Assembly: GCF_029223255.1 (NCBI RefSeq)
Contig: NZ_JARHUC010000004.1
Coordinates: forward strand, 620,001 to 684,000
Reading direction: 5' to 3'
DNA length: 64,000 bases
Origin: Albimonas marina
Lineage (GTDB): Bacteria > Pseudomonadota > Alphaproteobacteria > Rhodobacterales > Rhodobacteraceae
In this document: piece after piece, positions 11,493-49,850 of the stretch
How positions within the stretch are numbered: the first letter of the stretch is position 1
Layout: each line of letters begins with the position of its first letter
The notes under the pieces: model-generated
Seen by the model: only the letters and a program-made list of their open reading frames with translations
Told to the model about the DNA's origin: nothing
Database searches by the model: none
Made by a program: the position numbers and the translations under genes

Positions 11493-11722
11493 TTCCTCGC
11501 GCCCCGGGCCGCCGCGCCCGGGACGAGACTTCCCCTCCCCCCGCGGGGGAGGGGGCCGAGCCCGCAGGCGCCCTGCGGGCGGGCTCGGGCCCCCGGCGCG
11601 GGGCGCGCCCCGACGCCTGCCGCCTGCGCCGGTTGCAGGAGGGGGGGCGCCGACGCAAAAGGCGCGACGCAGCCCAACCCGACAGCAGGGGCCGGTCGTC
11701 CGTTTCTCGAAAAGGACCGGTC
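11493..11722. other. Intergenic region between convergent M20 peptidase and SDR operon
   Basis: 230 bases without a gene. It holds two hairpins: CCCTCCCCC/GGGGGAGGG near 11533-11553, and CGAGCCCG...CGGGCGGGCTCGG near 11558-11588. The second includes GGCGCCCTGCGGGCGGGC, the same flank motif seen beside all three palindromic elements. A third weak stem (CCGGTC...GGACCGG) at about 11692-11720 could terminate the minus-strand SDR operon. Confidence 0.5.
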
Positions 11723-43354: not shown

Positions 43355-43670
43355 GGGGAGAGGGGGCGCCCTGCGGGCGGGCTTGGGCCTGCGGCTGGGG
43401 GCGCGCCTTTGTTTGCGAAGGGCGGGAGCCTCCGGCGGGCTCCTGACTCACCAAAGAACAGGGGGCCGCGCCTGTCCTTCGGATCCGTCTCTCGCTGAAG
43501 ATGCCTGAGCGACTCGCCCGCCGGGGTCAAGGACAAGCCCCGCGCAAGCGCGGGGTCGCTTCGCGATCCTGGACCCCGGCGAACGAGTCGCTCTTTACGG
43601 CATCAGCGAGAGACGGCTCCGAAGAACAGGCGCTTTGCGAGGACCTCCGCGCATCGCGCCGGGGCGCGTG
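43355..43670 (+). repeat. Palindromic intergenic element, copy 2
   Basis: Occupies nearly all of the gap between two convergent genes (stops at 43330 and 43707). The core at 43468-43633 folds as GCGCCTGTCCTTCGGA/TCCGAAGAACAGGCGC, CCGTCTCTCGCTGA/TCAGCGAGAGACGG, GCGACTCG/CGAGTCGC, CCGGGGTC/GACCCCGG and an apical CCCCGCGC-AA-GCGCGGGG. The 5' flank has GGCGCCCTGCGGGCGGGC and a GAGCC/GGCTC stem; the 3' flank has GCGCCGGGGCGC. It is very close to copy 3. No T-run follows either arm. A bidirectional transcription end, a recombination or IHF-type DNA site, or a MITE-like element are options. Confidence 0.88.
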
Positions 43671-49534: not shown

Positions 49535-49850
49535 GCGGAGAGGAGGCGCCCTGCGGGCGGGCTTGGGCCTGCGGCTTCGGGCGCGCCCGGATCGGGGAGG
49601 GCGGGAGCCTCCGGCGGGCTCCTGACTCACCAAAGAACAGGGCCCCGCGCCTGTTCTTCGGATCCGTCTCTCGCTGACGATGCCTGAGCGACTCGCCCGC
49701 CGGGGTCAAGGACAAGCCCCGCGCAAGCACGGGGTCGCTTCGCGATCCTGGACCCCGGCGGACGAGTCGCTCTTTACGGCATCAGCGAGAGACGGCTCCG
49801 AAGAACAGGCGCTTTGCGAGGACCTCCGCGCGTTGCGCCGGGGCGCCTGG
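49535..49850 (+). repeat. Palindromic intergenic element, copy 3
   Basis: Third copy, again filling the gap between convergent genes (stops at 49507 and 49926). The core at 49647-49812 has the same stems as copy 2; outer arm GCGCCTGTTCTTCGGA pairs with TCCGAAGAACAGGCGC with fewer mismatches than copy 2, and the inner arm GACCCCGG-CGG-ACGAGTCGC keeps pairing. Flanks match copy 2 over almost the whole block. Its high similarity to copy 2, 6 kb away, and larger distance to copy 1 suggest local spread or gene conversion. Confidence 0.88.

Follow-up and report, generated by a model that had tools for sequence, protein, structure and literature searches.

The 64,000-nucleotide stretch of Albimonas marina DNA analysed here (the window) carries three copies of a long palindromic element, one strand of which appears to fold into a hairpin with a Y-shaped tip. 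The reading that we favour, at somewhat less than an even chance, is that of a once-mobile, strand-polar structured element that is now retained at gene ends as a transcript boundary.

The three palindromic cores lie where the initial annotation had placed them. Full-length covariance-model matches cover 1579-1745 (copy 1; 179.1 bits), 43468-43633 (copy 2; 192.6 bits) and 49647-49812 (copy 3; 194.4 bits), all with the minus strand as the folded strand, and each core measures 166-167 bp inside a block of about 300 bp. The shared flanks reported earlier, GGCGCCCTGCGGGCGGGC and GCGCCGGGGCGC, are found at 3/3 window copies, as is CTCACCAAAGAACAGGG; a small GGAGCC hairpin occurs at copies 2 and 3. 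According to our own gene calls these two copies indeed fill gaps between convergent genes, and copy 1 is flanked by two tandem genes. In copy 3, the 166-bp hairpin core, also delimited by its fold and covariation, encloses the tip (49702-49755; TCAAGG stem, C-GNA-G hairpin and second hairpin, supported by the tip model and pair counts). On the minus strand the hairpin is directly followed by a third strand that repeats the start of the 5' arm (49626-49642; the same design occurs in relatives), and further into the 3' part by the GGAGCC hairpin (49604-49622) and a conserved 3' tail (49545-49562; GGCGCCCTGCGGGCGGGC on the plus strand). A conserved 5' flank motif occupies 49835-49846. Copy 2 has its tip at 43523-43576 and its 3' part at 43365-43463 (tail 43365-43382, GGAGCC hairpin 43425-43443, third strand 43447-43463), and copy 1 has its tip at 1634-1688 and its 3' part at 1482-1575 (tail 1482-1499, third strand 1559-1575), all on the minus strand.

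The core is predicted to form one long hairpin that ends in the Y-shaped tip, and its arms of 31 and 27 nt are 89-97% complementary. Folded as RNA with its flanks, copy 3 reaches -154.7 kcal/mol, whereas its shuffled versions average -97.6 (sd 4.8; z = -11.9; 0/200 as low), and copy 1 folded as DNA gives z = -9.3. An alignment of 54 cores (46 host loci, window copy 1 and seven copies from A. pacifica) yields a consensus of 64 pairs, 14 of which show double changes that preserve pairing. The inner stem varies strongly in sequence among these cores, with the partner strand matching each time; by eye, the cores start with GCGCC and finish with GGCGC. Conservation is highest in the inner tip rather than at the ends. 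This tip branches as a three-way junction: its stem (TCAAGGRT/GYCCTTGA) carries two hairpins, a small one whose loop is C-GNA-G and another that varies in length, and a CNT is left unpaired; in Albimonas the loop of the small hairpin is a C-GNA-G triloop in which N is free. The R-Y pair of the stem is A-U or G-C, and C-G in further genomes. Among 35 tips from several phyla (43 loci tried, eight that misfit the looser pattern excluded), 92.2% of cells are paired and the covariation score is 0.486, compared with 0.132 when shuffled and at most 0.142 when slid. Since these loci were chosen by pattern, the TCAAGG and CCTTGA letters of the tip alignment are partly imposed; the outer stem and the pairing of the small hairpins are not.

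One strand stands out in how its pairs vary. On the TCAAGG strand of the Albimonas cores we count 29 G.U cells in 10 pairs versus 2 A.C cells in 2 pairs, and in the wider tip alignment the excess is weaker (40 G.U in 11 pairs versus 16 A.C in 9); both counts exclude pairs with 30% or more G.U. When copies of the host contig (C17) and of A. pacifica contig C32 are added, G.U outnumbers A.C by 51 to 6 (89 rows, some host copies present twice). Thus, one defined strand seems to be the folded form, and a double-stranded palindrome offers no reason for such a bias. Strand-biased mutation could add to the G.U excess. The opposite strand also matches the covariance model, at a lower score (115 versus 194 bits for copy 3). 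G.T pairs are more stable than A.C in DNA as well, so that the bias fits RNA or single-stranded DNA alike. A structured RNA, one of the readings offered by the initial annotation, is consistent with the one-strand conservation of pairing, and the G.U bias does not decide between it and single-stranded DNA.

The full-length form has a further part. Directly past the hairpin comes a repeat of the opening 8-9 bases of the 5' arm, after which the sequence reads TGGTGAG instead of the arm's CGGAGCC. In 16 copies from eight other genomes this third strand matches the arm of its own copy at 105 of 128 letters, against 54.5 under permutation (0/5000 permutations as high), and is identical to it at all eight letters in 9 of the 16 copies; the third strands of L094, L105 and L116 are incomplete in this comparison, which lowers the match. 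Four copies in a single genome (G022) carry four different versions. No third strand is visible by eye in the short tip-only forms. Because the start of the 5' arm recurs, the 3' arm has two possible partners, an arrangement that might act as a switch or let the 3' arm guide cutting at two sites. Orphan third strands, of the kind that excision would leave behind, number 0/18 on the host contig and 0/15 on the part of A. pacifica C32 that we compared; orphans of the tail motif number 2/16 on each.

The element is abundant in Albimonas. The host contig that carries the window (732,160 bases) contains 19 full-length copies and two short tip-like matches, a density that corresponds to roughly 150 copies in the host genome. 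Both short matches (L141:8698-8778 and L143:1264-1343) cover model positions 42-126 only and resemble the tip-only elements of other Rhodobacterales. BLAST of the block against the host genome (5.85 Mb) gives 335 candidates, the best 40 of which fall at 40 places, and the arm motif with one mismatch allowed has 389 matches there (69 for the reversed control), with about 160 arm pairs. The 166-position model matches 149 of 150 scored candidates in the host, 150/150 in A. pacifica CGMCC 1.11030 and 0/150 in a third Albimonas genome (G002), counts that may include both strands of one place; the copy number in A. pacifica is of similar order to that in the host. The tip model has 146 matches in the host, at least 150 in A. 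pacifica and four in the third genome. With no full-length copy and four tip matches in the latter, either the expansion postdates the origin of the genus or this genome has lost it. The initial annotation had allowed that the element might occur nowhere else or might belong to a known named repeat family; the covariance-model search of the genome and its relatives that it proposed returns many further copies, and no Rfam family is matched at the gathering score.

Comparison with A. pacifica shows copies at corresponding sites. The host contig and the C32 part share blocks of roughly 79-91% identity. Seven A. pacifica copies have both flanks on the host contig, and for six of them there is a host copy, for one not. 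Two further A. pacifica copies, 8 kb apart, correspond to one host copy, as is expected if copies recombine, and other edges of synteny blocks coincide with copies. Within the window, copy 3 (49647-49812) is the host counterpart of two direct A. pacifica copies (C32 part 316252 and 324644). A single coreless 3' tail motif also lies in the window, at 11567-11584, near the host match to the left flank of the A. pacifica copy at C32 part 215995, and may thus be a remnant. In eight ortholog comparisons, 47 double changes and 17 one-sided changes leave the bases still paired, and 10 changes break the pair. The mean identity of orthologs (about 0.82) is no higher than that of other cross-genome pairs, and copies within a genome average 0.86; some of the double changes could thus stem from conversion between copies. 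The variable stem is swapped block-wise between orthologs.

A site in genomes with few copies gives a cleaner view of the pairing. In the gap between betB and betA the element lies antisense to both genes in seven genomes, including three Tateyamaria and one Sulfitobacter, and both position and orientation are kept across genera (NCBIfam names both genes in L240, L227 and L093 and only betB in L100 and L313; the remainder were assigned by clustering). Six of these copies were aligned (L240, L227, L271, L209, L100 and L313), and 14 of 41 pairs show double changes, with 3 one-sided changes, 13 unpaired cells, 15 G.U and 2 A.C. The seventh genome (L093), excluded from the alignment, has a full-length, different form in this gap; the other genomes have short forms. 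The bet copy sits inside an operon-like gene pair, where a strong terminator would be odd. A second shared site, in Leisingera ANG-Vp and one other genome, follows a DEAD-box helicase gene (RhlE-like; best NCBIfam matches below the cut-off) and precedes a convergent gene.

Gene ends are the preferred location. On the host contig and 400 kb of A. pacifica C32, with genes called by our own codon-usage script, the neighbouring genes are convergent for 16 of 35 copies, tandem for 18 and divergent for 1. Of the gaps that measure 150 bp or more, 16/58 convergent ones contain a copy (p 8e-6 versus the rest), as do 18/200 tandem and 1/110 divergent ones (p 6e-5). The folded strand agrees with the genes in 11 of the tandem gaps and is opposed to them in 7. 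In other genomes, where 30 contexts (two of them duplicates) were listed from 36 loci tried, 12 are convergent, 10 tandem and none divergent, with 8 left without assignment; seven of the tandem contexts are opposed (four of these are the bet site) and three agree. The folded strand is therefore not tied to the adjacent transcript, and in our view the polarity concerns the life of the element itself instead of being a plain 3'-UTR signal. The orientation majority per contig exceeds random expectation among the best matches listed (p 0.003 in the host, 110 places; p 0.011 in A. pacifica, 118 places), and in the same sets adjacent copies do not point the same way significantly more often than expected at random (p 0.066 and 0.25). 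A replication-linked orientation was set aside: the signal is weak and mixed, and GC skew differs between the two genomes over the shared region.

Whether such placement reflects a bidirectional transcription end, as suggested in the initial annotation, is a matter of circumstantial evidence. A simple terminator detector fires at 17/50 gene ends with a copy versus 51/555 without. Within 40 nt past the core, though, it fires for 13/35 copies, on the element's own UGUUCUU, and on the opposite strand for 6/35. The detector thus responds mainly to the element itself, on the folded strand mostly to this UGUUCUU, and a role in termination is putative.

Forms of the element extend well beyond Albimonas. 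At an E-value of 0.001 or better, the full model (9 candidates scored per genome) matches 17/295 genomes of the family, the host included, six of them only over the inner part. A scan of GTDB genomes with the tip pattern yields at least 107 stretches; among the 80 matches listed are many Rhodobacterales, together with Pseudovibrio, Rhodobium, Oscillospiraceae, other Clostridia and metagenome-assembled Acidobacteriota. We folded 40 stretches (one viral), most of which form long hairpins; L257 and L281 do not and look like chance matches, in agreement with our estimate of 2-3 chance hits for the pattern. With the tip model at E-values up to 1e-5, matches occur in 8/385 Alphaproteobacteria, 13/398 Pseudomonadota and 7/341 genomes of the class of Flintibacter (overlapping samples, each counting its own starting genome; 12-15 candidates scored per genome), and 16 other genomes picked as carriers have 1-11 tip matches each. 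In Pseudovibrio, a copy whose arms and third strand resemble those of Albimonas (L242:2886-3649) is next to a resolvase gene. The Oscillospiraceae form (L230:1059-5915) is part of a longer repeated region, with a serine recombinase gene on one side and BlaI/BlaR1-like genes on the other. One IMG/VR contig has the tip as well, and its flanking ORFs match this Oscillospiraceae locus in length and spacing. An origin of transfer was considered for the Oscillospiraceae copies and dropped, given these neighbours and no relaxase at L230.

Searches of reference collections give no match to a described family. At gathering scores Rfam has 0 matches in the window and none on the element in 14 related loci, for which reason we dropped a known RNA family; at E-values up to 10 there are seven matches, all sub-threshold. 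The 316-bp block has no blastn match in 72,556 plasmid and 50,697 phage records, a search that would miss diverged copies and in which near records may be absent, and a plasmid or phage element was likewise dropped. A full-text literature search returned no paper that we recognised as describing this element. The supplement of one study reports 250 palindromic candidate RNAs (PMC8040213), among which the Oscillospiraceae form could be included.

Past mobility is suggested by the number and scatter of the copies. The Y1 transposase (PF01797) is found in 0/8 genomes, versus 5/14 control genomes that are positive. Y2_Tnp (PF04986) is found in 0/3 Albimonas genomes and 0/5 other carriers, and in one carrier, G680 (1/9 overall); with 0/14 in control genomes this control is uninformative. 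IS91-type (Y2) cargo was dropped given no Y2 transposase in the three Albimonas genomes. Among the compared loci no neighbouring transposase is shared, and we found neither exact ends nor a target duplication nor a site that cleanly lacks the element; the host site that lacks the A. pacifica copy is too diverged to show ends. Clusters of neighbouring ORFs, searched for an autonomous form, gave only the bet-region synteny and a serine recombinase cluster from four sources, nothing general. The suggestion of a MITE-like or domesticated element stands as far as a dispersed, retained, strongly structured element near gene ends is concerned; no parent transposon, ends or target duplication were found.

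The element shares traits with several known systems. REPs are described as repeated palindromes of 20-40 bp that adjoin the 3' ends of genes, the two neighbours being mostly convergent or unidirectional, with CGTC REPs lacking a known transposase (PMC3733652). REPs (GTAG or CGTC) and BIMEs thus resemble our element as repeated palindromes by gene 3' ends with convergent or unidirectional neighbours. The core of 166-167 bp is longer than these units, as the initial annotation stated, and differs from them in its three-way-junction tip and in that no Y1/RAYT gene was found in the eight genomes, for which reason we dropped a REP/RAYT identity; by eye, the core ends also lack GTAG or CGTC (the ends of the full element are undefined). 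YPAL (RU-2) of Yersinia, described as palindromic, about 167-168 bp long and present in many intergenic copies (PMC2759123, PMC2267715), is similar by that description in size, palindromic form and many intergenic copies, but belongs to another bacterial group, and the tip of the Albimonas element occurs beyond one genus. MITEs and small mobile repeats such as ERIC, NEMIS and RIME are likewise non-coding, multi-copy, intergenic hairpin formers; the Albimonas element differs in that our analysis defined no parent transposon, no terminal repeats flanked by a target duplication and no ends, and in that its inner tip is most conserved. Like an intrinsic terminator, it places a very stable hairpin between convergent genes, with a U-rich UGUUCUU after the hairpin on one strand, but it is much longer, with a conserved tip sequence, strand polarity and no regular U-tract.

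Several other explanations compete with a once-mobile element retained at gene ends. The copies could be genes for a family of structured non-coding RNAs, or could yield RNAs by processing at gene ends, in either case made from the TCAAGG strand and acting in trans, with the two partners of the 3' arm serving as a conformational switch. Double changes and G.U excess on one strand argue for this, as do the third strand, which changes along with its own copy's arm (105/128 versus 54.5), and the bet-site position and orientation held across genera. Nevertheless, promoter and transcript are putative only, about 150 similar copies would be odd for a trans-acting gene, and the strand bias needs no RNA, since G.T beats A.C in DNA too; we give this explanation about one chance in four. 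We rate as slightly less probable a single-stranded DNA hairpin that serves spread by an enzyme or a replication-linked role, in which the third strand and the 5' arm would be cut sites and the 3' arm their guide. Loops of the C-GNA-G type are very stable in DNA, and the Albimonas tip has such a triloop with a free N; moreover, the folded strand is independent of gene direction, and among the best matches listed each contig has an orientation majority (p 0.003 and 0.011). Against it, agreement in orientation between adjacent copies is within chance (p 0.066 and 0.25), Y1 is found in 0/8 genomes and Y2 in 0/3 Albimonas genomes and 0/5 other carriers (it is present in G680), and neither the host contig nor the C32 part has an orphan third strand.

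A neutral relic of an extinct mobile repeat, whose arms match through template switching inside the palindrome or conversion between copies and not through selection, appears improbable to us. It would account for the block-wise swaps of the variable stem between orthologs, for within-genome copies that are slightly more alike (0.86) than cross-genome ones, for copies at rearrangement breakpoints and for the coreless tail at 11567-11584 in the window. Template switching and conversion alone, however, give no excess of G.U over A.C on one strand, which strand-biased mutation could, and the low-copy sites retain place, orientation and pairing across genera.

Returning to the favoured reading, the hairpin would be a dispersed, non-coding, strand-polar element whose spread in Albimonas was that of a non-autonomous repeat. 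What counted for the element would be its folded single strand, either RNA or single-stranded DNA, which would account for the lack of a fixed relation between the folded strand and the genes on either side. Copies would have settled by gene ends, where the very stable hairpin most likely forms a boundary that separates converging or successive transcripts and may stall the polymerase or shield mRNA 3' ends, from either side. In full-length forms the 3' arm may pair with the 5' arm or with the third strand, whose repeat of the arm is plain and whose use as a switch is conjectural. The pairing at established loci is probably under selection now.

Dispersed hairpin repeats at gene ends are already known as a kind, and the combination found here (a cross-phylum tip, polarity, pairing at fixed loci, a co-varying third strand and no Y1) fits no family tested. 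The polarity, the third strand and the cross-phylum tip go beyond what the initial annotation described. A bolder interpretation, which we regard as rather unlikely, is a cross-phylum class of strand-polar hairpins with a three-way-junction tip, whose full-length three-strand design would be a strand-exchange switch or a two-end cutting guide, read by a yet-unknown enzyme or RNA partner and recruited as gene-end punctuation. Palindromic repeats are usually known from a single genus or linked to a known transposase; here, a tip structure is kept from Rhodobacterales to Clostridia and Acidobacteriota, with about 150 copies in one lineage and no known enzyme. Two questions become testable: by what means palindromic repeats that lack a transposase multiply in a genome, and whether they serve bacteria in keeping converging transcripts apart.
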